This document shows, piece after piece, positions 12,042-39,083 of a stretch of DNA of 54,963 nucleotides. The notes under the pieces are model-generated. The model saw nothing but the letters and a program-made list of their open reading frames with translations, was not told the DNA's origin and made no database searches. The position numbers and the translations under genes were made by a program. The stretch spans positions 6,606 to 61,568 of the forward strand of contig DYDB01000003.1 of NCBI GenBank assembly GCA_020718085.1, written 5' to 3'. The number at the start of each line of letters is the position of its first letter. Position 1 is the first letter of the stretch. This DNA is from Micavibrio sp. (GTDB lineage: Bacteria; Patescibacteriota; Minisyncoccia; Moranbacterales; GCA-2747515).

Positions 12042-12380
12042 TCAATTTTTGCTCGTGTTTTCTGCAATATGCTTTTCCAGATCCGCGATCGCTCCCGCAA
12101 CAATTGCATCATAATCCGATACATGCACACGCATAAATTCTTCAATTTTGCTCATATCCACAACTTCAGGATCTGCCATCATATCCTCAAGAGTTTTTCT
12201 TTGAGTTTCGTCGAGCACTTCATACACATTCACCAGAACGCGTTTTATCACAGATTCTGTCATTTTCTCGACTACGCTCTGCTGTTGTATATCGCCAAGA
12301 TTGTCAAAACCAAATTTTTGTGCAATAACGTGATAAATATCTTGTTGCATATTTTGTTCATTGTTTTGTGTATTGTCCAT
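12042..12380 (-). CDS. small conserved protein, paralogue of 17437..17760
   Basis: 112 aa; shares VxxKMTESVIKRVLxxxY and DYDAIVxxAIADLxKHIAE with the 107-aa protein. Confidence 0.8.
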   Translation of the reverse strand: MDNTQNNEQNMQQDIYHVIAQKFGFDNLGDIQQQSVVEKMTESVIKRVLVNVYEVLDETQRKTLEDMMADPEVVDMSKIEEFMRVHVSDYDAIVAGAIADLEKHIAENTSKN

Positions 12381-12425
12381 AGAATATGATAGATTTATGA
12401 TTTACATGAAAATTTAAGTGAGTGG

Positions 12426-14315
12426 TCAGACAAAAATTTTGTCCAACGGAATTTTTTTGTTTGCAGCATGTACAGCAATACGCGTAAAATACGTACCAAT
12501 TGTTGTATTATTTTTTGGCGTTGCCACTTCATGGCCCAAATATTTCTTTGCCAGATTCACTACACGATCCACTTGCTGTTGTGTAACTTCATTATTATTT
12601 TCAAGTAGGCCCATAGGCATACTTCCTACATTTTTTGCCGGCAATCCATACAATTTCTGGATCTCCGTTGCAATAGAATTATTAAACTGCGGATCTTTGA
12701 TCATCTCTGCGATCACCGCTTTTTCTTGAGCTAAGCTCATTACTCCCGTTGGCATTTTTTCCACAACGGTGGCAGATGGCATAACTGGAGCTTTTTCCAT
12801 TCTTGGCGCCGCATGTTCCGTCATCGAAACATTTCCACTTGGTGTAATCTGTTCAGTCGCAGGTGCTACTGTCGATTGCACTGCTTCAACACCTTTAGCA
12901 ACACCGCCTACAGTCTCAATATTACCACTTTCTGAAGGAAAGACCTTCTTCATCGCATTAAGTCGACTGGCAATATCTTCCTTTGCTTTTGGCACTTCTG
13001 TTGTCTGTGGAGATGTAACTTCGATCGCTTCATGTGGCACACCAACATTTTCTACCTCCGGTTGCACATTGACTGATGCCATCTCTTGCGCAGCACCAAA
13101 AGATCCTTTCATTTTATTGAGACTTGTGAGAAGGTCATTTTTCGAAGACTGCTCTACCACATTCTGGACCTTTTCCGTAGATTCCACCATTATCGTTTCT
13201 TGTGGCACTGCTTGTCCATTTATTTCAACCGGTGATTCATTCTGAAATGTTGCTGTGATATTTTCCGTATTAATACCCATTCCTTGCGCAGCATTGTGTG
13301 CCAATTCTTGTTGTGCACGCATTTCCTCCATAGCCTTTTGAATGAGCACTGTATTACCACCTTTTGGTGTATGCTCCACTGCTTCAAGAGTAACTTGTTC
13401 TGCTGCAGGGATCTCTGCAGCAGAAACTTCTCCTACACTAAAAACCTTACCCACCTCTCCCAATGCCATAATGCCGGCAGCAGCACCAATTCCAACCATG
13501 ACACGCTGTTTACGATCAGCCAATTTTCCTTGGAACATCTCATCAATTTTCTGAAACGATGTATCATCAAAACCTTTAAGATGCGCCATCTGGTCCTCTA
13601 TGCTCAAACTTTTAAAATTATCCATCGTTTCAGTTACATGCGCTTGTTCTTTTTTCTGTGCACGTGCTTCCATCCACCCTGTTGCACCAACACCGGCAAC
13701 AGTCGCTCCCAATACACGCTTACCCATCGCTGCGGCACCCAAAACACCCGCCGCAGCACCGACACCTGTTGCCAAGCCTCCGGCAAAAAGAGCTGCAGAA
13801 ACTGCAATTTTGTATTTTGTAGGAACCTTCTTATACCATTCTGCTGTTTTCTGTATCACCTCACCACATTTTCCACCAAAAGTTTCCGCCTTTGCCTTGC
13901 TATGACTGTCAACGAGATTGCAACTTTCCTGAAGCTCAAAAGTCTTCAGCTCTGCCAAAGATTCTTTTTTTTGCTCTTCCGGCAATTGATCAACGCGTGC
14001 AAGATGTGCTTCGCGATACTGCGCAAGAGATGTGTTATATGCTTTTCTCATAACATCAGAATCCACATCTTGCCCCGTATCCACATCCCCCAAAAATTGT
14101 TTAAGTTTATTTATGGTACTTTCCCGCCTTTGAAGCACACGTGCATAGTCGTCACGCGCAGTATCCAAAGCCTTTTTTAAAGACTCCATGTCCACCTCTC
14201 TTGCCTCACTTTGCGATTCAGCAGGCTCCATGTCACCTTCCATTTTTTCGGATGAATGCTGTTCTGTTGCAGAAGTTTGTGATGCAGATATATTTTTTTC
14301 AGGATCAAATGACAT
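12426..14315 (-). CDS. large coiled-coil/TM modular protein (surface-apparatus candidate)
   Basis: 629 aa; N-terminal coiled coil, hydrophobic segments AVSAALFAGGLATGVGAAAGVLGAAA and VMVGIGAAAGIMALGEVGKVFSV, one PVEINGQAVPQE module, C-terminal TTIGTYFTRI module. Confidence 0.8.
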   Translation of the reverse strand: MSFDPEKNISASQTSATEQHSSEKMEGDMEPAESQSEAREVDMESLKKALDTARDDYARVLQRRESTINKLKQFLGDVDTGQDVDSDVMRKAYNTSLAQYREAHLARVDQLPEEQKKESLAELKTFELQESCNLVDSHSKAKAETFGGKCGEVIQKTAEWYKKVPTKYKIAVSAALFAGGLATGVGAAAGVLGAAAMGKRVLGATVAGVGATGWMEARAQKKEQAHVTETMDNFKSLSIEDQMAHLKGFDDTSFQKIDEMFQGKLADRKQRVMVGIGAAAGIMALGEVGKVFSVGEVSAAEIPAAEQVTLEAVEHTPKGGNTVLIQKAMEEMRAQQELAHNAAQGMGINTENITATFQNESPVEINGQAVPQETIMVESTEKVQNVVEQSSKNDLLTSLNKMKGSFGAAQEMASVNVQPEVENVGVPHEAIEVTSPQTTEVPKAKEDIASRLNAMKKVFPSESGNIETVGGVAKGVEAVQSTVAPATEQITPSGNVSMTEHAAPRMEKAPVMPSATVVEKMPTGVMSLAQEKAVIAEMIKDPQFNNSIATEIQKLYGLPAKNVGSMPMGLLENNNEVTQQQVDRVVNLAKKYLGHEVATPKNNTTIGTYFTRIAVHAANKKIPLDKIFV

Positions 14316-14459
14316 AATATTATACTTAAATGGATCACTACTATTTTACATCATACCAATATGAAATGGAATGACCAAAATAGCTTCTATACATCTCAAC
14401 GGAATATTGAACTATGCACTGAACGAGGATTCATTTTCACGATACAATGCAGCCGCCAC

Positions 14460-16958
14460 TTATGTCTTCCAAAAATGTTCTGACGCAGCTGTACCTTGCG
14501 ACTGTGCATGCGCTTGTAAAGCTTGTACTGTGCGACCAACTACCTCACGTTCCACGATCTCACGGTCACGTCCATATTTCAATCGTGAGAGTTCCTTTAT
14601 CGGTTCCACGATATCCAGATTTCCTTCTGTCGGAAGTGGTGCCTTCATATTAAACGGTGACGTAGAAACATTATTAAGCAAAAGTTTTGCAAAATAATGG
14701 TAGTTGTCCACATTGGTCAAATCCTGTGCCGTAAAGATCGGTGCAAACTGTTTTTCAAGAAATTCCGCATCTTCCGGACCGACGCGATATGCGGCAAGTG
14801 AACCAACGTTACCAAACACTGCTTTGGAAATTCCTTCCGATAATTGACCAATGAATTGATGTGCAATGATAAGCGCCAATCGATATTTACGCGCTTCTGA
14901 CAAAATTTGTGCAATTGAGTCTGTCGTTACATTTTGAAATTCATCGATATACAAATAGAAATCTTTACGATCTTGCTCAGCCATGTCGACACGACCCAGT
15001 CCTGCCATCAACAATTTACCCACAACGATCATGCCCAAAAGATGACTGTTCGTTTCTCCGATCTTACCCTTCGATAAATTCACAAGTAAAATTTTCTGAT
15101 TATCCATGACATTGCGAAAATCCAGTGTACTTTTTTGTTGAGAAATGATTGGACGCATCATATCATTGGAGAGAAATGGCGTAAGTTTTGATGTGATATA
15201 CGGCACCATGTTTGCAAGCGCAGCTTCACCACCGGCTTTTTCAGCCTCGTTCGTCCAAAAATCCCTCACAACTGAATTTTTACATTTTGACAATTTCATG
15301 CGACGAAAATCTTCATCTGCCAAAACTTTTGGAATTTCCATAAGCGTTGAACCTGACTCCGGATCATCCATGATCAAAAGCATTGCATTGCGCATGTATT
15401 GCTCGAACATCGGACCGCCAGTTGCCTTGAGGTCATAAAGCTTATCAAAAATGTTGATGATCTCATTAACAACAAATGTCTTCTCTTCGGGCTTATTATA
15501 TTCCAACATATTGAGACCAAATGGACGTTCTGTATCCGATGGATCAAAATACACTACATCTTCTGCTCGTTCCTTCGGCACAGCAGTCAATATCTTTGCG
15601 ATCGCATCTCCATGCGGATCAATAAAACACATACCATGTCCGTTACGAACGTCCTGTTTTGCCATTTCCTCCAAGAGTGTGGACTTACCCACGCCAGTTT
15701 GTCCAATGACATACAGATGTCGTCTTCGATCATTTTGTGAAAGATATACGTCAGTATTTACACCACGATAATCATTCCATCCTAAATAGACGCCTTCTTT
15801 TGGAATATCAGTTGGTGGTGGTGCACTTCCGGCTTTGAGCCATTTAATCTTTGGCGTTTCCGTTGTAGAGATCGGAAAGTGAAATATGCTGGCAATTTCC
15901 TCCACACCAAGCAATACACCGGCGGAATCATCAAATGCACGAAAAATATAATTAAAAGCTTGACGCTTTGCTTTTGAACCAAAACGCTTGATCACAAAAT
16001 GATTAATGCCATGATTTTCGAACTGTGAGAACGCATTTTCCATATGTGATAAAATTTCCTCTGCACGACTCTGTGTGCTCGCTGACGCAATAAGTCGAAT
16101 ATTCACCATGAAAGCGGACTTCGATGTTTTCATTTCAATTGATTTGACCAATTCTTGTTCTTCCGGTGTAAGCTGAATATTTTTTTCCATCGAATGTTGA
16201 TCAGCTTTCTTTGTGACAAACGCTTTATTTGCTTCCTTGAAGAGCTGTCCTGCAATTGTTCTGTCCACATCCTTTAATTGTTTACCTTGTTGCATTTCAT
16301 GAGCGAATTTGCGACCTTTCGCACGCCATCCCATGCCCGCATCATGCAAAATGATCTGAATACTTGCACCTTCATCATGAGAGTTTAATTTGCTGAATGC
16401 TGTTGTAATTTCACTAAGCGGATCTTTTTCCATACGTTCATATGTACGCACTGGCAATGCAAAGCTCTTCTTAAGCGTAACGACGCCCATTGCTGTTTTT
16501 GATCCCGGAGTAAAAATTGTATAATCATCAATTTTCTCGATTGATGAATCTGAAAAGTAACTATGCACTTGTTTTTCAAGAGATGACCGATATTTTTTTG
16601 GCACAGAAATATAAAAGAATATTTCTTCCTTGCCGGCTGGATTTGCAATTTCCAGCGTAATCGTCGGTTTTCCATAAAAAAATGATTTCCACGACAATTT
16701 TTTATCCTTCAATTGTGCAAGAGACGTCAATAACTGCTCCATCACACCAATTTCCTCTTTCCACTTTTCAGGATTTTGCATCCCGACATCATTACGGTTT
16801 TTATTTTGTGCAACACGAATCACCTCCAAATCCTCATTCATCGAACGATTGATGATTACGCGATATCCAAAAATACTTTTGAAAATCAAAGAAACTCCTG
16901 TGCCCACACTGATAAGTGCCAAGACAATGATCAGAACAATGAAAATCAAGTCAACCAT
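14460..16958 (-). CDS. type IV secretion/conjugation coupling-type ATPase (TraG/VirD4-like)
   Basis: 832 aa; N-terminal TM, Walker A VIGQTGVGKSTLLEEMA, CFIDPHGDAIAKIL, VVYFDPSDTERPFGLNML, Walker B DFYLYIDEFQNVTTDSI, LIIAHQFIGQL. Confidence 0.92.
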   Translation of the reverse strand: MVDLIFIVLIIVLALISVGTGVSLIFKSIFGYRVIINRSMNEDLEVIRVAQNKNRNDVGMQNPEKWKEEIGVMEQLLTSLAQLKDKKLSWKSFFYGKPTITLEIANPAGKEEIFFYISVPKKYRSSLEKQVHSYFSDSSIEKIDDYTIFTPGSKTAMGVVTLKKSFALPVRTYERMEKDPLSEITTAFSKLNSHDEGASIQIILHDAGMGWRAKGRKFAHEMQQGKQLKDVDRTIAGQLFKEANKAFVTKKADQHSMEKNIQLTPEEQELVKSIEMKTSKSAFMVNIRLIASASTQSRAEEILSHMENAFSQFENHGINHFVIKRFGSKAKRQAFNYIFRAFDDSAGVLLGVEEIASIFHFPISTTETPKIKWLKAGSAPPPTDIPKEGVYLGWNDYRGVNTDVYLSQNDRRRHLYVIGQTGVGKSTLLEEMAKQDVRNGHGMCFIDPHGDAIAKILTAVPKERAEDVVYFDPSDTERPFGLNMLEYNKPEEKTFVVNEIINIFDKLYDLKATGGPMFEQYMRNAMLLIMDDPESGSTLMEIPKVLADEDFRRMKLSKCKNSVVRDFWTNEAEKAGGEAALANMVPYITSKLTPFLSNDMMRPIISQQKSTLDFRNVMDNQKILLVNLSKGKIGETNSHLLGMIVVGKLLMAGLGRVDMAEQDRKDFYLYIDEFQNVTTDSIAQILSEARKYRLALIIAHQFIGQLSEGISKAVFGNVGSLAAYRVGPEDAEFLEKQFAPIFTAQDLTNVDNYHYFAKLLLNNVSTSPFNMKAPLPTEGNLDIVEPIKELSRLKYGRDREIVEREVVGRTVQALQAHAQSQGTAASEHFWKT

Positions 16959-16989
16959 AAAAATTTTTGTATTAAAAAATTGCGAAATG

Positions 16990-17421
16990 TTATTCTTCGA
17001 TCAATCCTTTGGCAAGAAGTGCCTGATAAAATTCCTCGGCACGCATACGGTCATGTAATTGATCCAATACGTAAAAATCTTCTGTGTGTTGCGCTACCTT
17101 TACTGCATGTATCACACCTTTTGTAGTTGCAATATCCATCAAATGTGATATTTGTGATTCCAGATCGGTCATCTGATGCAACATGCTAGCATCTTGTGCT
17201 ACAGCTGCAGCGTTCGTTTGCTGCGTTGTTGCCACCTGAGAGAGTATCTTTGCATATACAGTGTCATCTTGTGCACGTGGCACCTCAGAAGCAACTTCGC
17301 GGACAGTCTCCTTCTCAGAGAGATTAGGATCCTGCGACATCCCAGCATTGAAACGATCCTCTAAATTTACGTTTTCTGGACTAATATTCTCGTTGTTCAT
17401 TTTACCTTGTGGTTCCAACAT
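16990..17421 (-). CDS. small cytoplasmic helical protein of unknown function in ATPase cluster
   Basis: 143 aa; tightly packed between ATPase and 107-aa paralogue, same strand. Confidence 0.7.
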   Translation of the reverse strand: MLEPQGKMNNENISPENVNLEDRFNAGMSQDPNLSEKETVREVASEVPRAQDDTVYAKILSQVATTQQTNAAAVAQDASMLHQMTDLESQISHLMDIATTKGVIHAVKVAQHTEDFYVLDQLHDRMRAEEFYQALLAKGLIEE

Positions 17422-17436
17422 ATTTTTTAGAAAAAA

Positions 17437-17760
17437 CTACATGGCAGATGTTTCTGCAATGTGCTTTTTGAGATCAGCGATCGCCTCATTGATGATCGCA
17501 TCATAATCAGTTAATTTTTCACGCAAAAATTCTTCGATCGCATTTGGATCAACACTTTCGATATTTTCCATCAATTCTTCAAAACGCTTTCGATCAGAAC
17601 TACTTAACTTTGTATAAGCATCCAAGAGAACACGCTTGATCACCGATTCCGTCATGCGTTCGATCAATCGTTCTTGTCGATCAGAATCAAGGTCTGTAAA
17701 ACCGAATTCCTGCGCGATCACTTCCTGAATTGTTTGCGGTTGTTGTACATCTTGTGTCAT
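17437..17760 (-). CDS. small conserved protein, paralogue of 12042..12380
   Basis: 107 aa; VIAQEFGF, RMTESVIKRVLLDAY, LTDYDAIINEAIADLKKHIAE. Confidence 0.8.
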   Translation of the reverse strand: MTQDVQQPQTIQEVIAQEFGFTDLDSDRQERLIERMTESVIKRVLLDAYTKLSSSDRKRFEELMENIESVDPNAIEEFLREKLTDYDAIINEAIADLKKHIAETSAM

Positions 17761-17789
17761 AATTTTGCTTTAATTATTTGTATTATACC

Positions 17790-20700
17790 CTAATTTTGTT
17801 CTGGAGGGAAAATGCGATCAACTGTGCCCGTGACTTTTGCGCGTGCCATAATACTTGCAAAATATGAGCGCACTGTTGCACCAGGCCTTGGTTCACCGAT
17901 CTCCGGTCCAAATACATCTTTTGCGCGTGAGATCACATCCTCCAGATTAAATTGAGCCTTGCTAAGATAGCCTGCGGAGGCAGCGACGCTATCCGCACGT
18001 AAAAATGATATCTTCGCGCCTGCAATATTTTCTATACGATTTGTATCAAATGTGCTTCGCATTTCTCTAGCCACCGCACGCACAAAATCATCCTCATGAA
18101 AACGCGGCTGTTCTCGTAAAGCTCGCATGATCTGATCGTCAGGGAAATTCTTATACGTATCCACAGAATGCTCCGCGACATCTCGCGCATGAGCCGCATT
18201 TTCACCTTGTGACATCAGATCATTCAGATGTCTTGCAGTCTTTACGCGCTGCAGCTGATCGGGTGTATACAATTCCTCAGGCACAGGTTTTCCGTTGATC
18301 TCAACAGGCACTCCACCTTGAAGTTTTGCTTTGACATTGAAAATATCCTTTTCTCCCATCTTTTCAGCAAAAGATTGGCTTAACTGTGCATTTTTATGTA
18401 ATGCATCCGTACTGTTTTGCATGAATTCTTTTGCAAGAGGTGAGCGACGTATGATCTTTTCATGTCCCTGTTCCAAAGATGGTTGCACATCATGACCGGG
18501 ACGAATTTCTCGCGCGGAATCATAGAAACTTTTTCCATTACTTTCGAGGTGCTCACGCAACTTCATGTTAAGTTTCATCATTGCCTGTCTTTTCTCCATC
18601 GCATCTCCGAAAATACTTGTATCGTTTTTATATTCACTTGCCAATTTCTGTGCGTATTCTTTATCAACACCCCTCTGTGTCAACTCCTTGGCAATATCAC
18701 CAGCCGGTGTATCGGGCGTAAATGAAAAACCAGTTGACATTACTCGCGTACCTTCCTTATGTGAAAAAAACTCATCCGCATTTTTTGAACGACGCACCAC
18801 GCGCTCATCACCATTCTGCGTTGTATGTTCTTGCTTCTGTCGTATTTCAGTGGGTTGTTCCGCTTGTTCCTGAACATTTTCAACAGGCGCTGTTGGTGTT
18901 TCAATTTTCACTGCATTCTCGACAACGGGATCTTGCAAAGAACTGATCTCATGTGTACGTAAAACTTCCATCACGGTCTTATTCGATAGATCGATGTTTT
19001 TTTCGCCAATAATCTTGATAAAGGCCTTATCAAAATTCGATTGTGCCTTATCAGGATTTACATGTTTGATCTCCTCAAAATATTTATCTGCCGGTGCCTT
19101 GTCAAAAAATGTATATTGATCTTCATTCATGCCAAACATGCGTTGCATATCGCCTTTTGTATATATCTCCTTCACAACACTTTCAGCTTGATCACCAACA
19201 TTTTCCGGAGATATTGCATGCGGAAGTTCAACTTTTGTCGCATCCGGTACAATATGTGGCCCACCCTCAAAATCAATATTCGTTTTGACATCTGCCAAAT
19301 TATGCAAATCAAGAATAATTTTTGTATCGGGCCTGATATGATCAATATCTATACCAGGATGTGCTTTTGCATATTCGTTTGCCAAAACTGTCGCACGCGT
19401 TTGCGCCCATTCGTGCACACTGTGATATTTCTCCGGATCCCATCCCATTTTACCCTCTGAAAGAATTTTGTGATTTTCTTGATTTTCGAGAAACTCTTGA
19501 ATTGTTCTACTGATATTTGATCCTTCTTTTACTGCTAAAATACCAATACCTTTTTCTGGATCAATAGAAATATCTCCTGTAAGTTCTTTCCACCGTGACA
19601 CATTCATTTCCTGTGCACTAGCAGAAACATCTTGAGAGTCAGCAACATTCATACCATCATACATTCTAGTATCAACCCATGCAGACTGCATCTTACCACG
19701 CGTCAATTCTTCAAAATTATATCTTTTCAACCCCATCTCACGATCAACCGCTGTCACTGGAATATGATTAATTGATTGAGGAACACCCTCATTATCATAA
19801 ATAATATCGTGCACATCCCTAATGTTCATTTGTTCTGCAAAAATCTTCCCTAATAAATGAGACTTCGCAAGAGGATCAAGCCCCTCAACACCCTCTTTTT
19901 TCAGCCCCTGTTCTTCACCTTGTCCTGAGATATCCGTTGACGCCGCGCGTATTGTTTCTTGTGAGAGACTAGGATCTGATTCCAAACCGGCTCCCGGTAC
20001 ATGAACCTGTCCAACGTGTCCCAAGTAGCTCGGCTTGTAACCATATTTTTCCCAAATTTCTTGTGGCACAGGTTTACCATTTAAGATCACAGAGCCTTCA
20101 TGTATATCCAATGTTGGATTTTGATCGGTGATATGCATTTCCTGTGCAACACGTTGCGCCGTTATTACATCGCGTTCTAAATGCACGCGATCAGCGATCA
20201 TGTTGGACCGTGCGATCATTCCCTTTTCCCAATTATTGATCACTTCCTGTCTTGGTGTATCCGGATGTTCCTCTACAAACTTTTTGAAAGCCTCCGTATT
20301 GTATTCTTTCTGAAAATCTGCATACGCTTGCGTATCATGAAATCCTTGCGATTGAAATTCCGTAATGTGATCATTGTAAGAAGTATATTTATCGAGCCAT
20401 GCTTCCGTAACTGATCCATCGCGCAAAGCTGCTTCCACTTCCGCACCATCTATGTTCTTTGGTTCCACATCCAAAAGTGGTTTACCTGCACGATTAAGAA
20501 ACGCGTGATCCACACTCGTATCACTTTTTACAATATCTTCTGCACCATGCGCATCACCACCCATAAGCATAAATACACTTCCTCCGGCAATCGCGCCGGT
20601 GATCAATCCCGCAAGCTTTGCGTTACCGGAAATTGCCTCCAAACGCTTTGCATCATTCACGATCGTGCCATGGTCAAAATCCATGAGGCGTAAAAATTTT

Positions 20701-22229
20701 TCCTCTTCTGTCATTTCTGAAAAGGCTTTTTTCTCTGCTGATTTTTCCTTTTCAAAACGACTTTTCTGCCATTTTTCAAAAAGCTTCGCCGTACCCATGC
20801 CAACTGCCACACCAGCACCGATCGGTGCCAAGAATTTACTCGTAGCAGCAGTGAACTTAAGTGCTGACATCGTCGTTTCTCCTGCACCAAGTTTCAGTGC
20901 AATTTTTGGTGCCATACTGAGTGCTGTACGCACACTGCCAGAAATAGCACCAAGTCCGATAGAACCAACGGCAAGAGTTTTTTGCACATTTTTATTGCGT
21001 GCCCATCGTGAAAACGTCGGGAGATATTTCTGTATGATCGGCGTGCCTTCTGATTTGATTTGCGTTCGTTGTTCTTGTAAAGATGCCACCTCCATATTTC
21101 GTCCTTCCACAACATCTTGAACGAGATTTTTGCGATCTTCAGGTGAAAGTTCATTATAATTATCAAGTAAAAAATTCTCTAACGCTTTGAATGCTGATTC
21201 ATAATCCTCACGAAATATTTGCACTTCTTTCTGTGCCGCCATATTTCCATCTTTGTTCCATGGCAATTTTCGCAATTTTGCCAATGCCGTATTAATTGCC
21301 ATGTCCTTACGTACAAAAACTTCACGCTTTTGTACCAGAATTGCACGCATTTCCTCTATTTTTTCGTGACGAATCTCGATTTTTTTGCCGTTATGCGCTT
21401 CTTTTTTTGCCGTAGCGATATCATCCCACTCTTTTTGAAATTTTGTCACATCATCCTCCGCCTCTATATTTTCACGCCTCTGCACTTCACGATCGAACTT
21501 ATTCTCTTCATCCATATCAGTATCACGTGATCCTTTTGGCACATCCGCAACAATTTCAACATCCGCCTTTTTTTCCTCATTTTTTTCATCTTCTTTTCCC
21601 GATCTCTCACCCAAAAGACTCAGTACGAGCCCTATTTTTTCAGACTCTTCTATATCATCAGAAAGACGCTGAGCGTCTTGTTCATATTTCGTTAATTTCC
21701 TTTTTTCTCCCTCAAATTTACCCTGTGCAACATCGCTCGCATCAAACTGTTTCTTACTGTCATACCGATTCTCCATGCCGATAATTCCTTGCAAACGCAC
21801 GATTTCTTTTTGCAACTCCTGCAATTCCTCTTTTTTGCCATTGATATTTTCCCCCTTGCGCGTATTAATATAATCACGCAATGACTGTTGATCGATATTT
21901 TTAAATATCTCATCTGCATATTTTTCTCTTTTTGCCATAAGAGCATTCTTTTCTTTTTGATGGGTTTCAAGCTCTTCTTTTTTTGCGGTCATGCCGCCAG
22001 CGGTATCATTTGTTGCATGCAGTGCACTTTCCCTGCTGGTGATTTTTTGGTCAATCAGTGTAATTTCTTGATCTATTTCTGTGCGAACACGTTTTTGTTC
22101 CTCGTTACCATTTTTCAAAAAATGAGCAATTTTTTCCGCTGATGCTGAACGCAAAGCAACTACGATATGCGCATTCTCCTCAGCTTTTCGTTCCTGTTGT
22201 GATATAGATTTTGGTTTTTCAAAACTCAT
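17790..22229 (-). CDS. giant coiled-coil/TM modular protein
   Basis: 1479 aa; N-terminal coiled coil, TM hairpin region, GLITGAIAGGSVFMLMGG TM, three INGKPVPxE-like modules, GGPHIVP module, C-terminal ATVRSYFASI module. Confidence 0.82.
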   Translation of the reverse strand: MSFEKPKSISQQERKAEENAHIVVALRSASAEKIAHFLKNGNEEQKRVRTEIDQEITLIDQKITSRESALHATNDTAGGMTAKKEELETHQKEKNALMAKREKYADEIFKNIDQQSLRDYINTRKGENINGKKEELQELQKEIVRLQGIIGMENRYDSKKQFDASDVAQGKFEGEKRKLTKYEQDAQRLSDDIEESEKIGLVLSLLGERSGKEDEKNEEKKADVEIVADVPKGSRDTDMDEENKFDREVQRRENIEAEDDVTKFQKEWDDIATAKKEAHNGKKIEIRHEKIEEMRAILVQKREVFVRKDMAINTALAKLRKLPWNKDGNMAAQKEVQIFREDYESAFKALENFLLDNYNELSPEDRKNLVQDVVEGRNMEVASLQEQRTQIKSEGTPIIQKYLPTFSRWARNKNVQKTLAVGSIGLGAISGSVRTALSMAPKIALKLGAGETTMSALKFTAATSKFLAPIGAGVAVGMGTAKLFEKWQKSRFEKEKSAEKKAFSEMTEEEKFLRLMDFDHGTIVNDAKRLEAISGNAKLAGLITGAIAGGSVFMLMGGDAHGAEDIVKSDTSVDHAFLNRAGKPLLDVEPKNIDGAEVEAALRDGSVTEAWLDKYTSYNDHITEFQSQGFHDTQAYADFQKEYNTEAFKKFVEEHPDTPRQEVINNWEKGMIARSNMIADRVHLERDVITAQRVAQEMHITDQNPTLDIHEGSVILNGKPVPQEIWEKYGYKPSYLGHVGQVHVPGAGLESDPSLSQETIRAASTDISGQGEEQGLKKEGVEGLDPLAKSHLLGKIFAEQMNIRDVHDIIYDNEGVPQSINHIPVTAVDREMGLKRYNFEELTRGKMQSAWVDTRMYDGMNVADSQDVSASAQEMNVSRWKELTGDISIDPEKGIGILAVKEGSNISRTIQEFLENQENHKILSEGKMGWDPEKYHSVHEWAQTRATVLANEYAKAHPGIDIDHIRPDTKIILDLHNLADVKTNIDFEGGPHIVPDATKVELPHAISPENVGDQAESVVKEIYTKGDMQRMFGMNEDQYTFFDKAPADKYFEEIKHVNPDKAQSNFDKAFIKIIGEKNIDLSNKTVMEVLRTHEISSLQDPVVENAVKIETPTAPVENVQEQAEQPTEIRQKQEHTTQNGDERVVRRSKNADEFFSHKEGTRVMSTGFSFTPDTPAGDIAKELTQRGVDKEYAQKLASEYKNDTSIFGDAMEKRQAMMKLNMKLREHLESNGKSFYDSAREIRPGHDVQPSLEQGHEKIIRRSPLAKEFMQNSTDALHKNAQLSQSFAEKMGEKDIFNVKAKLQGGVPVEINGKPVPEELYTPDQLQRVKTARHLNDLMSQGENAAHARDVAEHSVDTYKNFPDDQIMRALREQPRFHEDDFVRAVAREMRSTFDTNRIENIAGAKISFLRADSVAASAGYLSKAQFNLEDVISRAKDVFGPEIGEPRPGATVRSYFASIMARAKVTGTVDRIFPPEQN

Positions 22230-22317
22230 AGTACTTTTAATTTCCCCCTAAACTTTAACATTCATAATTATACAATACTTTATATACTTTACCTAGACAC
22301 ATTTTTCAGATATGCAC

Positions 22318-22354
22318 ACAAAAAAATGCTCACCATTTGAGCATCTTTTTGTGC
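22318..22354 (-). terminator. intrinsic terminator for 22369..24759
   Basis: AAAAAAATGCTCA-ccat-TTGAGCATCTTTTT. Confidence 0.75.
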
Positions 22355-22368
22355 ACCCATCAGCATTC

Positions 22369-24759
22369 TTATATCTGCGCATCTCCTTGCGCAAGTCTCA
22401 TTTTTTCGCGTAAAATCGTTCTGAATAAGTAATTTGAAACCTTTGTACGACCATTTGTGTTATCTTGCACTCCACTGCTTATCATGACAGACTGCAATCG
22501 CTCTTTCGTTCGCTCACTGATCTGCAATTGCATCACATCATTGACAGACATGTGTGCAATGCGTTGAATAAATTGTTTCTGCTCCTGCACAGATGTCCCT
22601 TGTGTCATTTCATCTGAAAAAATATCAGCGATACGCTCAAAAACAGCTTTTTTATAAATTTGACTCTCTTGGGGATCCGCTATGATTTCCCGCACTTTTT
22701 GAAGCTCTGTTTGCAAAGAAATTGTGGACGAATCATGATGATCTTGTTCAAAAGAATTTTTTGACGTATCATCTTGTCTTTCTGGTGTTTGATCCTGCAC
22801 CTCTTCCACGGTGGGCTTTTGATCAGATGCTCTTTTGATCTTCTGTTGTTCCGGGACAATATGCGGTCCACCGACAAAAACAATATTATCGATATGTATT
22901 TCTTTTGTTTCCTTGCCATCAGTAGTTTTTTGGATCAGATCAAGATCGATCTGTGTATTGGGATAAACCTTATTTAGATCTAAGAACTTATGCTCCTTGC
23001 TATATTTTTGTGCAAGGAGAAATGCCATTTGCGACGGTGTTTTCCCCGAATCTTTCAATAGCTCAGGATGTACATTAAAATATTTTGTCATTGACCCGAT
23101 AATACTACTGTTTTTCTCAACAATAACAGTTTTATGCATATCCATAGGACTTTCCTCCGCAATCGTAGATTCATTGATCTCTTGTGCTTTTTCTGCTTTC
23201 AGCTCTTTTTCTTTCGCATGTTCCGCAACAATTTTTTCTATTGCCTTTATACGTGACGCATTATCAGCCTCACGTACCGTTTCAGTATATCGCATCGTAT
23301 CATGCGCATTTGCGATGCTATGTTCATCTTCATTTTTATGTTTCCCTCCCGTGGCATATCCCAAAATAATACCGCCAACCACCATAGACACGACAAAAGC
23401 CTTTTTTATTTTTGGTGAGATGCGCGCATATTGCAAAGAAATATTATGTAAAATTTGAGAGATCCTTCCACCAGCTTTTTCTCCACGTGCAGACACGTCA
23501 GTTGCAAAACGCTCAACACCCTCTTCTATATTAATGTGTGTATTCTCCATTTCCTTTTTTACGCCACCGTAAATGGATGTGTATTGTAAATATGCCTCAC
23601 GATATTCTTTCCATGCCTCATGATATTCCTCACGAAATATCTTTATATCGTCATCACCAACAGAAACATCCTTCCCAAAAAAGCTCTTGATACGCACCAA
23701 TGAATCGTTCTGATCGATCGTTTTTTGCGTAAACAGGGATCGTGCGTCTGCAAGTTTCTGTCTCAATGCATCTAATTTTCTTTTCATTTCCTGTTTCTCG
23801 TTTGTATTTTCCTTCTTTTCTACGGATGCCTGCTCTTTTTTTGTATCCACACCAGACACTGATGTTTCTTTCACATTCGATTCGATATCTTTTTGTATTG
23901 TTTGCTGCGGAACAGCAGCAACGGCATTTTGCATATCGCGTTTTTTTTGTGCCTCGACAACAACTTCGCGTATTTTGTGTAGATGCGTGCGAAAAACATA
24001 CATGGCATGTGCCAAGTCCGCACCTGTTAGACCATCCTTTTTTTCAATATCTTGTGCAACTTTTTGCCAGAACAGTTCTACTGCATTTTTATCAGACTGA
24101 TCGATCTCTTGATATAATTGCGTCACATTTATCACACGATTGACTACGGCCAACTTTTGTCTATTTTTTAGATCTTCTGCCTTTTTTTTAGCATCTTCAT
24201 CCGATTTTTTTATTGATTCAGAAACCAAAATCATAAGTGCGTCGAATGCAAGTGGGAGATCTCGCAATGTGATCTCGATTCCCAAGTCCTCTCTGAGATA
24301 TGATTTTTGACGCTCGCGAAAAATACTAAATTCTTCTTCAAATTTTTTAGGATCATAATTCTTTTCACCCAAAATCTCTTTTGTGAACGGGCGCACGAAC
24401 TTGATATAATTCCCAACTGCGCTATATACATTCGGTTTTACAATTTCTTGCATCTGTTCCATCGTGATCTTTTTAGATTCTCTGGATTTTACAGAGATCT
24501 CACCATTTGCATCATGGTGTTCGAAAGATAATTGTTGTATCACAGCGGTTTCGATCTCTCGCACATTCTGTGGATTTGTTATGCTTTCTGCAGCAACAAA
24601 GTCAGAAACATTCTTGCGAATAATATCTTGTACAGCAGGATCATGTGGATTCCTTTGCTCTTTCATCACATCTTTAAGATGCGCTACAAGAGCAGAAATT
24701 TTTCCAACCATTTCATCGCTAAAAAGATCATCCTGTTCAATGTGTGTGTATTCATTCAT
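22369..24759 (-). CDS. large coiled-coil/TM modular protein
   Basis: 796 aa; coiled coil, TM IKKAFVVSMVVGGIILGYATGG, GGPHIVPEQQK module, C-terminal TKVSNYLFRTIL module related to the other two large proteins. Confidence 0.8.
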   Translation of the reverse strand: MNEYTHIEQDDLFSDEMVGKISALVAHLKDVMKEQRNPHDPAVQDIIRKNVSDFVAAESITNPQNVREIETAVIQQLSFEHHDANGEISVKSRESKKITMEQMQEIVKPNVYSAVGNYIKFVRPFTKEILGEKNYDPKKFEEEFSIFRERQKSYLREDLGIEITLRDLPLAFDALMILVSESIKKSDEDAKKKAEDLKNRQKLAVVNRVINVTQLYQEIDQSDKNAVELFWQKVAQDIEKKDGLTGADLAHAMYVFRTHLHKIREVVVEAQKKRDMQNAVAAVPQQTIQKDIESNVKETSVSGVDTKKEQASVEKKENTNEKQEMKRKLDALRQKLADARSLFTQKTIDQNDSLVRIKSFFGKDVSVGDDDIKIFREEYHEAWKEYREAYLQYTSIYGGVKKEMENTHINIEEGVERFATDVSARGEKAGGRISQILHNISLQYARISPKIKKAFVVSMVVGGIILGYATGGKHKNEDEHSIANAHDTMRYTETVREADNASRIKAIEKIVAEHAKEKELKAEKAQEINESTIAEESPMDMHKTVIVEKNSSIIGSMTKYFNVHPELLKDSGKTPSQMAFLLAQKYSKEHKFLDLNKVYPNTQIDLDLIQKTTDGKETKEIHIDNIVFVGGPHIVPEQQKIKRASDQKPTVEEVQDQTPERQDDTSKNSFEQDHHDSSTISLQTELQKVREIIADPQESQIYKKAVFERIADIFSDEMTQGTSVQEQKQFIQRIAHMSVNDVMQLQISERTKERLQSVMISSGVQDNTNGRTKVSNYLFRTILREKMRLAQGDAQI

Positions 24760-24902: not shown

Positions 24903-26483
24903 ATGATACTCAAACAAAAACAGATCCACTACATCCTCCTTGCAGCGATCATTGCATTAGCATTTTTTGTTCGCATATATAATATCGATTCCGTACCAAG
25001 CGGTATTTACCCGGATGAAGCAAACAACGGCACAAACGCTTTGGATGCGCAAAAAGAGGGTGTTTATCCGTGGTTTTATCCGGATAATAACGGGCGCGAA
25101 GGACTTTTTATAAACTTTATTGCACTCCTTTTTAAATTTTTTGGTGTAAGTATTTTTACATTCAAACTTCCTGCGATCATTATGGGTTCATTGACTGTTT
25201 TGGGCGTGTATCTGCTTTCGCGCGAGCTCTTTATTTCCAGACCACAACTTGCGCTCATTGCCGCCTATCTTACCGCAGTAAGTTATTGGGCAGTGAACTT
25301 TTCCCGTATTTGTTTTCGCGCGAATATGATGGTACCGATCCTTGCATTTCTTTTTTATTTTCTTTTCAAAGCCGTCCGCACAAATAAACTGGTCTATTTT
25401 GCCGTTGCCGGTGCAATATGCGGTCTCGGCTTTCATACATATATCGCATACCGACTCACACCCGTTTTGATCATTGTTCTTTTTCTGCTATTTGTCATAC
25501 AACAAGGTTTTCTGCCATTTCTCAAAAAATATTGGCGTGGAATGATACTTTTCATTTTATTTGCTTTACTCGCCTTTGCTCCAATGGGATATACATACTA
25601 CACACATCCGGAATATCTCTCCTCACGGACAGGAGATGTTTCTGTTTTTGCTGTTGATGATGTGCCGCTCACTGAAACACTTTTGCATACAACCACCCTT
25701 TCACTTCTCAAATATAACATCGCGGGCGATAACAACTGGCGTCATAATTTTCCCCCATATCCACTACTCGAACCAAGTGTTGGCGTAATGTTTCTCGGAG
25801 GCATCCTTACATCATGCGGTTTGTTTTTTCTCTATTTATTTCGTCGTTATCACACGAACATACGCAATCGCACATTTGTTGTACACGGATTTCTCTTGGC
25901 ATGGTTTGTAGGATTTTTAGCACCAGAGTTTCTCACAACAGAAGGACTGCCTCATGCTCTGCGCTCCATTGGCACGATCCCCGTTGTGTTCATTTTTGCA
26001 GCATTTTTTATCACGGTCCTTCTTGAGCGAGCACATAAGCACTCGCGCATCCTCTTTGTCACAACATCATGCATAACCGTTACATTGCTTATTTATTCGG
26101 GATTTTTTGACATGATAAAATACCATATTTTTTGGGCAACGCGCGTAGAACAAGCACACGCATTCAACAAGAACCTTACAGACATGGGTTATTTTATAAA
26201 CGCTCTCCCACAGAACGATACACCCATTTATGTTGTTGCCGGACACATGGAACTCCTACCTGTTACAATGCTCACGACCAATCGTCCAAATATACGATAC
26301 ATCTACGAAGAAGACATAAAAAAGATCGACCTGACTCAACCATTTATCATCTTTCTTCCCTCCGAAAAAGATGCAATGATCGATCACATCATGACGCAGA
26401 GTGATATTATGATCGAGAAGATCACCTATCCTCTTGATAGCTCATTTATTATGATCACATCAATTAATCAACAAATATTATGA
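24903..26483 (+). CDS. GT39-type (PMT/ArnT-like) polytopic glycosyltransferase
   Basis: 526 aa, multi-TM; VPSGIYPDEANNGTNALDAQKEG...NNGREGLF acidic loop-1 motif. Confidence 0.82.
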   Translation: MILKQKQIHYILLAAIIALAFFVRIYNIDSVPSGIYPDEANNGTNALDAQKEGVYPWFYPDNNGREGLFINFIALLFKFFGVSIFTFKLPAIIMGSLTVLGVYLLSRELFISRPQLALIAAYLTAVSYWAVNFSRICFRANMMVPILAFLFYFLFKAVRTNKLVYFAVAGAICGLGFHTYIAYRLTPVLIIVLFLLFVIQQGFLPFLKKYWRGMILFILFALLAFAPMGYTYYTHPEYLSSRTGDVSVFAVDDVPLTETLLHTTTLSLLKYNIAGDNNWRHNFPPYPLLEPSVGVMFLGGILTSCGLFFLYLFRRYHTNIRNRTFVVHGFLLAWFVGFLAPEFLTTEGLPHALRSIGTIPVVFIFAAFFITVLLERAHKHSRILFVTTSCITVTLLIYSGFFDMIKYHIFWATRVEQAHAFNKNLTDMGYFINALPQNDTPIYVVAGHMELLPVTMLTTNRPNIRYIYEEDIKKIDLTQPFIIFLPSEKDAMIDHIMTQSDIMIEKITYPLDSSFIMITSINQQIL

Positions 26484-28282
26484 TCAGAAAAAATTATATT
26501 TTCATTGTCACCTGCATTGTTCTATTTATGGGCATTATTTCGATCTCTCTTGCATGGACTGACGCACTTACTTTTGACGAAGTTGCACATATTCCTGCAG
26601 GATACAGCTATGCCGCACTACACGATTATAGGTTAAATCCCGAACACCCACCCCTTCCAAAATTGCTTTCCGGACTCATGCTCCTTCCATTGCACCCAAA
26701 TTTTGATACGACACAAGACTTCTGGAACAACACCCATGGCAGCGGAGAATATGGCCAATGGGATGCTGGGCGTCATTTATTGCATCATGCAGGTAATCCT
26801 ACCGACAAATTGGTTTTTTTTGCACGCATGCCATTTGTCCTCATTTCTCTCATGTTTGGCATTTTTCTTTTCTATTGGGGCAAAAAAATAGGTGGGATCG
26901 TCACCGGACTTTTTGCACTCATTCTCTATGCTTTTGATCCAAATGTTCTCGGGCACAACCACCTTGTCACCACAGATCTTGCAATTGCTGCAGCATTTGG
27001 TATTGCATTCTTCTTTTTTTTACAATTCCTCAAGAATCCCACATGGCCACATGTTCTTTATGGCGGTCTTGCACTTGGCATAGCACAAGTCACAAAATTC
27101 AGTGCCATTCTTCTTATTCCGTTTTTTGGTCTCCTACTTATCATCTATCCTCTGTTTATCATTCTTCCAAAAACACAAAAGCGATACAGAGTTTTTGGCG
27201 GCTATATTGCAAAAGGCATATGTGCCATTATCATAATGTTTGTCGTTATGTATATAACGTATCTGCCTGTCACCTACAACATGCCATCCGACATCTTGCC
27301 AACAATTGCTGCTGTCAAAGGCCAGCCACAGAAGTATGCGAGGGATAAATACCTGATGGCATTTATCGATAAAACCAATCAACATGTTCTTACGCGACCA
27401 CTCGCCACCTATACGCAAGGCTTGATGCAGGTATTCAATCGTGTTGATGACGGAAATGTTTCCTATTTTATAGGCACTGTTTCAAGTGACGCATCTCCGT
27501 GGTATTTTCCCTTTGTATTTGTCGCAAAACAAACATTCGTACATCTGTTCTTTTACGTTGTTGCATTTATCCTCGCACTTCTTCTTATCATGCAATCATT
27601 GCGACGACTTTTCACACAAAAAATCACATATTCACTTCATGCGTGTCGACGATTTTGCATGCGCAGATTTCATGAGATCTCCCTTGGTGCGTTTATAGTT
27701 TTATACAGCTACATTTCAATTACTGGAAATCTCACCATCGGTTTCCGACACCTTTTTCCCATGATGCCATTACTTTATGTATTGACAGCACGCGTAGTAA
27801 TTGGCTCGTACACAAAATTGCATAATAAATTTTGGCAAAAGATCGTACGCAACACATTTATTGTGATCATCATCGCTCTCATTGCGATTGTCATCAATGC
27901 GTATCCATACTATATTTCCTACTTTAATGCATTGTTTGGTGGTCCAAAGAATGGATTTCACTATGTCACAGATTCCAACGCTGACTGGGGGCAGGATCTC
28001 AAACGTCTCAAAACATATTTGGATCAACATCCGGAAATTTACAAGATCCGTATTGATTATTTTGGTGGAGACAATATAAAAAATCGCATCGGCGATAAAT
28101 ACATTATGTGGTGGGACAGCAAACGTCCTATAGAACCCGGTTATTATGCGATCTCCACACTACTTTTACAAGAATCTCTTCATCGCACAGATCGCGCCTA
28201 TGATGATACGTATCATTGGACAGACAAGTTGTTACCGATTGATCAAGTTGGTACATCCATAATGATCTACAAGGTGGAATAA
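26480..28282 (+). CDS. GT39-type (PMT-like) polytopic glycosyltransferase
   Basis: 600 aa, multi-TM; TFDEVAHIPAGYSYAALHDYRLNPEHPPLPKLL; overlaps upstream gene by ATGA. Confidence 0.85.
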   Translation: MIRKNYIFIVTCIVLFMGIISISLAWTDALTFDEVAHIPAGYSYAALHDYRLNPEHPPLPKLLSGLMLLPLHPNFDTTQDFWNNTHGSGEYGQWDAGRHLLHHAGNPTDKLVFFARMPFVLISLMFGIFLFYWGKKIGGIVTGLFALILYAFDPNVLGHNHLVTTDLAIAAAFGIAFFFFLQFLKNPTWPHVLYGGLALGIAQVTKFSAILLIPFFGLLLIIYPLFIILPKTQKRYRVFGGYIAKGICAIIIMFVVMYITYLPVTYNMPSDILPTIAAVKGQPQKYARDKYLMAFIDKTNQHVLTRPLATYTQGLMQVFNRVDDGNVSYFIGTVSSDASPWYFPFVFVAKQTFVHLFFYVVAFILALLLIMQSLRRLFTQKITYSLHACRRFCMRRFHEISLGAFIVLYSYISITGNLTIGFRHLFPMMPLLYVLTARVVIGSYTKLHNKFWQKIVRNTFIVIIIALIAIVINAYPYYISYFNALFGGPKNGFHYVTDSNADWGQDLKRLKTYLDQHPEIYKIRIDYFGGDNIKNRIGDKYIMWWDSKRPIEPGYYAISTLLLQESLHRTDRAYDDTYHWTDKLLPIDQVGTSIMIYKVE

Positions 28283-37323: not shown

Positions 37324-37779
37324 TCACGAACCTGTTTGTTTACATTCAAAAGTCCACGCGTTACTTGCCATATTTTTTAGACCACCATCGGAGACTTTAA
37401 GTGTTGCCGAAGAATTTTGAAAGACATTATTGATGATAAATGTGATCATCACGAACCCTGTCAAAACGATCACTACACCGATGATCGTATTTTTCAATGC
37501 GGATTTTGCCAAAGATGTCATCGCCGTATTTCCAGCAGAAACCATGTAAAAAATACCAGCAATCACAATGACCACAACGCCTGTGATCGCAATGATCTCA
37601 ACAATGAATTTGATGATACCGTGAATACCCTTTACGAGATCGCAAATAGTGCATGCTCCTGATACATTGGATGTTCGTCCACACGGCACGAGAGGATCCC
37701 TATCAGCTGCAAAACAAACCGGGGCTGTGACCAATATGCCACATACAAGTGTAAATAAAAATGTTCTCCAAAATTTCAT
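37324..37779 (-). CDS. VirB2/TrbC-like pilin candidate
   Basis: 151 aa; signal peptide, two hydrophobic helices FIVEIIAITGVVVIVIAGIFYMVSAG and TIIGVVIVLTGFVMITFIINN; next to a transglycosylase. Confidence 0.65.
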   Translation of the reverse strand: MKFWRTFLFTLVCGILVTAPVCFAADRDPLVPCGRTSNVSGACTICDLVKGIHGIIKFIVEIIAITGVVVIVIAGIFYMVSAGNTAMTSLAKSALKNTIIGVVIVLTGFVMITFIINNVFQNSSATLKVSDGGLKNMASNAWTFECKQTGS

Positions 37780-37796
37780 AATTTCATTTTAACATG

Positions 37797-39083
37797 TTAT
37801 AAACGATCTTTATAATTTTCCGCCCAATATTTTACTTTATTGCCATACTGCTTGCATACGGAGCGATCAAGGTTTGATCCACAATAATATCGACGCGCTG
37901 CATCGTACTCTCCTTTTTCGCTTGATGCGCCATCATTGGAAAGCTTGATCGCCATGGCCATGACACCATCAGTGAGACTCCACGGATCTGCCGGGCTGTG
38001 ACCAGTATATTTTTCAATTTTGGATTCATAGCCAACCCATGTTGTCGGCATGAACTGCGCCACGCCCATTGCGCCACCAATGCCATAACTTAATGCACAC
38101 GACACCTTAACTTTTTTATAATCATAATCCAAATCCTCACAAATACGTTTGAAGATCTCTGAATTTTTATCTCCCATCTTGCTTTGCTTATATGTACATC
38201 CACCTGTAAACCGACCAAGATCTGTTTCCACAACGAGCATGCCGAGAATGAAACTTTTGCGCACGCCGGTTTTTTTACTTGCAAACGATGCCGCTTCCAC
38301 AATGTCATCTGTGTCAAACGACTCGCCCAACAAAGAAGATAATTTTGATTCTACTGCAGAAAGTTTTGCGTTCAATTCCGATAGAGTTGCGTCCACTTTT
38401 ACGATCTCCGTTTGTACAGCGGCAGACTGTGCCAAAAGATCAGATTCTTTTTCTTTATGCTCTTCCAACAGAGCTTCTTTTTCATCTTTCAGTGACGCCA
38501 GTTCATTTCTTTTTTGTTCTTGTGCATCTTTTGCTGACTGCACCTGCTGTACCATTTCCACGATCTTCTCTCGCATTGCACCAAGATCATCCGTTTTTTC
38601 CATGAACCGATTTGCCCCATCCGCGTTTTCGATCACCGAAGAGAACAATCGCCCGTTTTGCGCATAATATATACTGCGCATTGCCTCAGAAAGAGATCTT
38701 TGGTAAAGGATAACTTGCCCATTCAACGTTTGGATCTGGGCATCATGGCGTTCGATATCTGCTTCTTTTTTCTCAATATCATTCATGACATCATCGATCG
38801 TCCTTTTTGTTGCACCGAGAGTTTGTTGCACCACATTCAAATTGCCTTGCAACGATGATTTCTGCGATTCGATCTTTTTTACTTTTTTTTCGATCTCATC
38901 TTGTTTGTCTTCCAGATCGTCTTTTTTGTCGTCAATTTCCTTTTGTTCTTCCGGTGTCAATTCTGTCGTTGCATCTTCCGCATAAACAAAACAGCCCACA
39001 GAAAACATCACTAGACTGCACCCTATAATACTTGCCAATTGCACAAAAATTTTACGTATTTTTTGTTTTTTCATAACACACAT
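37797..39083 (-). CDS. exported coiled-coil lytic transglycosylase (SLT fold, VirB1-like role)
   Basis: 428 aa; signal peptide, long coiled coil, GIGGAMGVAQFMPTTWVGYESKI, ARRYYCGS. Confidence 0.85.
   Translation of the reverse strand: MCVMKKQKIRKIFVQLASIIGCSLVMFSVGCFVYAEDATTELTPEEQKEIDDKKDDLEDKQDEIEKKVKKIESQKSSLQGNLNVVQQTLGATKRTIDDVMNDIEKKEADIERHDAQIQTLNGQVILYQRSLSEAMRSIYYAQNGRLFSSVIENADGANRFMEKTDDLGAMREKIVEMVQQVQSAKDAQEQKRNELASLKDEKEALLEEHKEKESDLLAQSAAVQTEIVKVDATLSELNAKLSAVESKLSSLLGESFDTDDIVEAASFASKKTGVRKSFILGMLVVETDLGRFTGGCTYKQSKMGDKNSEIFKRICEDLDYDYKKVKVSCALSYGIGGAMGVAQFMPTTWVGYESKIEKYTGHSPADPWSLTDGVMAMAIKLSNDGASSEKGEYDAARRYYCGSNLDRSVCKQYGNKVKYWAENYKDRL

Follow-up and report, generated by a model that had tools for sequence, protein, structure and literature searches.

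Motors of the VirD4/TraG kind feed cargo into type IV secretion (T4SS) channels. A life on other cells is assumed for Patescibacteria, one class of which, Paceibacteria, has very few cultivated members. A survey of the phylum counts 5,713 VirD4-like coupling proteins (T4CPs) in 2,918 genomes, that is about two per genome and mostly far from virB4 (PMC12102498). Since many known T4CPs, like most Patescibacterial ones in that survey, are encoded apart from virB4, co-location with relaxase or channel genes is not strictly defining for a T4CP. The same text reports for Southlakia epibionticum, the one species tested, that the T4SS is essential and the T4CP is not, and hence the ATPase studied here may not serve that channel.

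Here, we describe the neighborhood of a chromosomal coupling-type ATPase, E832, in the genome of an uncultured and ultrasmall bacterium placed in Ca. Moranbacteria/Moraniibacteriota, class Paceibacteria. The window, meaning the whole stretch of DNA that was analyzed, comprises 54,963 nucleotides. The ATPase family is already known, while its association with conserved partner genes appears to be new.

Results

The cluster consists of seven minus-strand ORFs between positions 12042 and 24759, all in one direction and separated by gaps of 15-144 bp (Table 1). The initial annotation had delimited the same seven genes, and all ORFs were found again with its coordinates and lengths. They are not chance ORFs, since the gene order of the 107-, 143- and 832-aa proteins is retained by their orthologues in most of the 38 Moranbacterial loci compared, where ORFs were assigned simply by taking the longest. 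In 36 of these 38 loci D143 immediately precedes the ATPase, and in 28 a DUF5663 gene adjoins; a giant module is found in 22/36 and a divergent PMT-type gene upstream in 29/36. The synteny on which the initial annotation had staked its reading is conserved, and profile scans did not recognize the large proteins as T4SS subunits, which it had also considered. It had missed the paralogy of C107 and G112 and the conserved divergent PMT-type pair at 24903-28282. Downstream of the cluster lies uvrA.

Table 1. Features of the seven-gene cluster and its divergent flank (window positions)
Feature	Coordinates	Strand	Length	Remarks
A796, large protein	22369..24759	-	796 aa	one TM (454-472); predicted extracytoplasmic module (563-657); 0 Cys
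B1479, giant	17790..22229	-	1479 aa	coiled-coil cytoplasmic N part; TM hairpin and TM ~539-557
B1479, C-terminal side	within 17790..22229	-		~900-aa presumed extracytoplasmic region; 0 Cys
B1479, 'EKGSSIE/GGPH' module, res ~886-1016	19182..19574	-		beta-alpha-alpha-beta order, confident prediction
C107, DUF5663 protein	17437..17760	-	107 aa	pI 4.4; Pfam PF18908 E 2e-5
D143, acidic helical partner	16990..17421	-	143 aa	pI 4.6
E832, VirD4/TraG-type coupling ATPase	14460..16958	-	832 aa	Pfam, AlphaFold, Foldseek
E832, layout	14460..16958	-		N-terminal TM, N-domain res ~60-388, motor res ~400-810
E832, N-terminal domain, res 60-388	15795..16781	-		profile matches
E832, Walker A GQTGVGKST, res 419-427	15678..15704	-		39-orthologue alignment
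F629, second giant-type protein	12426..14315	-	629 aa	TM module 136-277; C-terminal module 531-618 common with B1479
G112, second DUF5663 protein	12042..12380	-	112 aa	52% identical to C107
PMT_2 (GT39-type) membrane glycosyltransferase, divergent to cluster	24903..26483	+		Pfam E 1e-13
Second PMT_2 glycosyltransferase	26480..28282	+		Pfam E 3e-7; conserved synteny

E832 is a chromosomal member of the VirD4/TraG (T4CP) superfamily, of a subtype with an extra N-terminal domain. The assignment had been made from the motifs before, and Pfam, Walker motifs and Foldseek agree on it. Among Pfam families it matches TrwB_AAD_bind (PF10412, over the cut-off), TraG-D_C (PF12696, weakly) and DUF87. Walker A (GQTGxGKST) and Walker B (YLYIDEF) are invariant or nearly so across 39 orthologues, and E832 combines a RecA-type motor carrying Walker A/B with a TrwB/TraG signature, as T4CPs do. 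On the VirB4 side it has no match to PF19044 (TraG P-loop) and reaches 20 bits with TIGR00929 against a cut-off of 643. The AlphaFold model (mean pLDDT 78, pTM 0.56) comprises a TM helix, the N-domain and the motor; the anchor, a hydrophobic helix at residues 2-41, is kept in the ortholog alignment. In Foldseek searches the motor aligns with TrwB (E 7e-11, TM 0.64 by target) and also with HerA structures, and the whole chain aligns with TrwK/VirB4 over ~900 columns (E 2e-14) at a global TM of only ~0.28. A profile of the N-domain finds the separate N protein of a paralogue (E 2e-29), a haloarchaeal N protein encoded by its own gene just before its T4CP (E 6e-24), phage G gp156 (E 2e-17) and plasmid T4CPs of B. 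subtilis (E 1.5e-14) and of the streptomycetacean Embleya (E 1e-10); it does not match the VirB4 or TrsD of the host genome. Because of these N-domain matches, and because the Embleya and Bacillus relatives adjoin conjugation genes, E832 is a T4CP-type motor of the monoderm/archaeal subtype. Given this family membership, it likely transports cargo at the envelope.

Orthologues of E832 were present in 57/57 genomes searched in the order, the best matches being mostly 56-77% identical. Across Patescibacteria the profile matches 188/192 genomes, some of which may be matches to the paralogue. The cluster had been proposed to be a lineage-specific apparatus; this holds for the giants, which are restricted to the lineage, but not for the pan-Patescibacterial ATPase. 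The paralogue occurs in nearly every genome searched, usually with N-domain and motor as separate genes. In the host genome it lies at G000:C7:34500-37500 (L070), split into an N-domain protein (427 aa) and a motor (599 aa) with a zf_Tbcl_2 zinc finger at its C-terminus; the split ATPase is preceded by a 352-aa sigma-like DNA-binding protein and followed by alaS, and genome G029 (L071) is arranged similarly. Searches of IMG/VR gave ten remote loci, mostly matching in the motor region.

D143, an acidic partner of the ATPase, was found in 138/188 genomes of the class. This is the class-wide figure to be used, since loci from other families were partly picked for containing D143 and its frequency there is no measurement. 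In five genomes (L237-L240, L242) D143 is fused to the ATPase N-terminus, which is good evidence of physical partnership. On the strength of the class-wide occurrence and the fusions, D143 is very probably an ATPase subunit. A second lineage group (Uhr-, Magasanik-, Komeilibacteria and others) carries a ~160-190-aa protein in its place upstream of the ATPase; homology to D143 was rejected (hhalign probability 0.2%). In four loci of that group (L132, L136, L138, L139) a conserved protein of ~200 aa (VEGVFDG..MIGSDGKQY..PPNYASKSKLVEGDILKLTI) comes after the ATPase, and in L136 and L138 a gene reading as dnaX comes next.

C107 belongs to DUF5663 (PF18908; 25.5 bits, gathering threshold 23.7). G112 stays below that threshold (18.3 bits) and aligns as a paralogue of C107, so that the cluster holds two giant-DUF5663 cassettes, B1479 with C107 and F629 with G112. 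The latter is a second cassette; F629 is closer to a giant of the sister genome G005 (41% over 373 aa) than to B1479 (27% over 96 aa), and the F629-G112 pair was not seen downstream of the ATPase in the four same-genus loci. The membrane (TM) module of the giants (alignment A4) was detected in 11/287 genomes of the phylum and DUF5663 in only 69/287, absence counts that are upper bounds of true absence since both profiles are weak at phylum distance. A motor so rarely accompanied by this TM module can evidently dispense with it. In 11/11 genomes with the TM module a DUF5663 gene lies beside it, with or without the ATPase nearby. Several giant-DUF5663 pairs lie far from the ATPase (L176, L183, L241, L243, L246), and DUF5663 adjoins the ATPase where no giant was recognized (L237, L238, L287, L297). 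Thus, DUF5663 connects the two, being found with each of them apart from the other. The pair in L176 adjoins a gene reading as ftsZ. In another Patescibacterial group DUF5663 lies near translation genes, with no recognized giant (L165-L174, L179); S1 and IF-2 were seen directly in L168, and the other loci show similar gene sizes.

In the giants, a charged coiled-coil part at the N-terminus leads into a hydrophobic, Gly-rich hairpin that has basic flanks at either end. Next comes another hydrophobic segment with acidic sequence behind it, and the remainder is a long C-terminal region. From the positive-inside rule they are predicted to be oriented N-in/C-out. The 2,275 residues of A796 and B1479 contain no cysteine, and the two cysteines of F629 are both in its N-terminal part. 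One giant relative (L183) has a Pro/Ala-rich spacer. A C-terminal module had been ascribed to all three large proteins. B1479 and F629 have it in common (profile E 1e-27), but the profile did not detect it in A796. What A796 has in common with B1479 is a different extracytoplasmic module of ~90 aa, which recurs in other families. This second module is predicted as strand-helix-helix-strand, with pLDDT 84-93 over local residues ~510-600; the modeled part of B1479 (residues 381-1479, mean pLDDT 55) is poor elsewhere and has no match in the PDB. The sequence pattern and the strand and helix order are only suggestive of LysM, and we do not class the module as such, since neither profile nor fold searches (Pfam, PDB) returned a match. 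Scans of the giants against Pfam, NCBIfam, PHROGs and PADLOC gave no usable match. Within the genus, ATPases are 74-93% and DUF5663 orthologues 61-88% identical; the giants, 629-1671 aa long, align patchily at mostly 23-48%, with one close pair at 93%. Variation of this kind next to a conserved motor is typical of proteins that lie on the surface or are delivered.

In the other families of the class, 21 loci have enough upstream sequence, and the divergent PMT-type gene is found upstream in 13 of them as well. Genomes of ~1 Mb carry a median of about 5 and a mean of about 6 PMT_2 genes, and by our own estimate (~6 copies per ~1 Mb) a divergent PMT gene within 10 kb is expected by chance at ~3%. 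The pair flanks the ATPase operon also where no giant was recognized; it thus belongs to the ATPase locus itself and need not act on the giants.

As the initial annotation had remarked, the seven-gene cluster holds no VirB4, VirB6, VirB8 or VirB10, and relaxase or channel genes are absent from it as well. Other contigs of the host genome carry its T4SS core. Contig C5 has VirB4, PrgI, the PF19044 match of the genome and a VirB6 match below threshold, and contig C2 has a pilin array. The main locus, G000:C5:25200-35380 (L157), encodes a VirB6-like protein (701 aa), a 405-aa protein of no assigned function, PrgI (150 aa), a TrsD-like protein (229 aa), VirB4 (607 aa) and a large unassigned ORF cut by the contig end. 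A complete T4SS, with VirB4, VirB6, VirB3/PrgI and coupling ATPase in one locus, was not found; the parts are dispersed in the genome. In the window itself, positions 37324-39083 (minus strand) encode a 151-aa protein resembling T4SS pilins (sub-threshold PF18895) and, beside it, a 428-aa protein that has a coiled coil and a lytic transglycosylase (SLT_2) domain and may be VirB1-like. An exclusive pairing of the ATPase with VirB4, or with its absence, was rejected: both occur almost universally, and either one may be lacking where the other is present. The relaxase class searched, PF13814 (replication-relaxation, the neighbor of T4CPs on Gram-positive plasmids), has no match in the host genome; it occurs in 24/192 Patescibacteria genomes. 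This family may lie outside the nine relaxase classes of the cited survey.

Discussion

We read the operon, with a probability of roughly 0.5, as a Patescibacterial chromosomal T4CP-type ATPase with class-specific partners and a lineage-specific, fast-evolving envelope-contact module. The ATPase would sit at the membrane as a ring and pump a substrate, with D143 as a built-in subunit or adaptor. DUF5663 may link the motor to the cytoplasmic part of the giants, which would span the envelope in N-in/C-out orientation. The PMT-type enzymes encoded nearby may add glycans to their long extracytoplasmic part, which might evolve fast because it is in contact with the wall or with partner cells. Most likely, the motor would feed the T4SS channel encoded elsewhere in the genome, or the giants would serve as its own contact module or conduit through the envelope. 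A bolder version, which we regard as tentative and rather unlikely, would see a second T4SS-superfamily machine in Paceibacteria, separate from the VirB4 T4SS, in which the coupling-type ATPase, a dedicated D143, a DUF5663 adaptor and interchangeable glycosylated giants reach from the cytoplasm to the surface and set contact with host or prey.

The giants may mediate contact or be cargo themselves. By analogy with effector-chaperone pairs of T4SS or T6SS, they could be substrates, namely polymorphic effectors whose TM hairpins are weakly hydrophobic, and which would each come with a DUF5663 chaperone and be sent by the ATPase via a T4SS into a partner cell. The two-gene cassette of a large variable and a small acidic helical protein, its second copy in the host genome, the borderline-hydrophobic Gly-rich hairpins and the C-terminal modules common to otherwise different proteins would fit such a system. 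We nevertheless consider it unlikely, as the giants show no toxin or enzyme domain in Pfam or NCBIfam, their charge pattern and Pro/Ala-rich spacers suit envelope proteins, and neither a DUF5663 fusion nor another direct sign of a chaperone was seen.

The ATPase might also have no tie to the giants at all and be an autonomous DNA pump, HerA/FtsK-like or for DNA import or export, in an operon that reflects clade-specific co-location. Its HerA matches point this way, as do its full-length relatives in the Bacillus phages G and SPO1, the ATPase profile match kept in 14 genomes in which VirB4 was not matched at the threshold applied, and the different ATPase neighbors in other classes, including the dnaX-like gene. 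However, its closest relatives on plasmids are encoded as T4CPs in conjugation loci, the N-terminal TM is conserved, the synteny with DUF5663 and PMT genes recurs in many families, and some of the 188/192 matches may be the paralogue; a pump of this kind thus seems improbable to us. Least of all do we expect the remnant of a domesticated conjugative element that lost its relaxase and has no current transfer role. T4CP ancestry and the lack of a PF13814 relaxase in the host genome agree with such an origin, but purifying conservation throughout the phylum and stable partners throughout the class argue for a live function.

On our preferred reading of a T4CP-type ATPase with class-specific partners and a contact module, near-universal coupling ATPases that lie far from virB4 now have concrete candidate partners named by a conserved neighborhood: the fused D143, the DUF5663-giant cassettes and the divergent PMT pair. 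The giants are candidates for a fast-evolving module at the surface by which a host is contacted, and the partner genes may show how ultrasmall parasites touch or feed on other cells.

Comparison with known systems

The T4CPs counted in PMC12102498 are almost certainly the same proteins as E832 and its paralogue on contig C7. That work analyzed virB4 neighborhoods, whereas we analyzed T4CP neighborhoods, and in its available part we did not find the partner set described. DUF5663, of which C107 passes the Pfam cut-off, is a family of unknown function, and we found no mention of it in the literature searched. Of the anti-phage defense systems, MADS mad8/HerA was considered and rejected: only the motor region matches, and PADLOC finds no other component among the seven proteins. 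VirB4/TrwK is the best full-length fold match of E832 in the PDB; it differs in that the VirB4 and TrsD of the genome lack a sequence match to E832, and the true VirB4 is encoded elsewhere. The Bacillus phage proteins gp156 of phage G and gp27.4 of SPO1 (phrog_5156; H1, H14) match the family over their full length (PHROG E 1e-82, Foldseek E 6e-42). The phage G relative differs in being phage-encoded, and its annotated neighborhood in that phage contains no giants. T4CPs of Gram-positive conjugation systems (Embleya NZ_CP108778, Bacillus subtilis NZ_CP154917) are likewise full-length relatives including the N-terminal domain, with 25-28% identity over 83%. Both plasmid T4CPs adjoin VirB4-type ATPases and a replication-relaxation relaxase, with PrgI in Embleya, and NlpC/P60 is also among the neighbors of such plasmid relatives. 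Next to the plasmid T4CPs lie a VirB4-type ATPase, a relaxase and conjugation genes; at the Moranbacterial ATPase, D143, DUF5663, the giants and PMT-type genes take their place.
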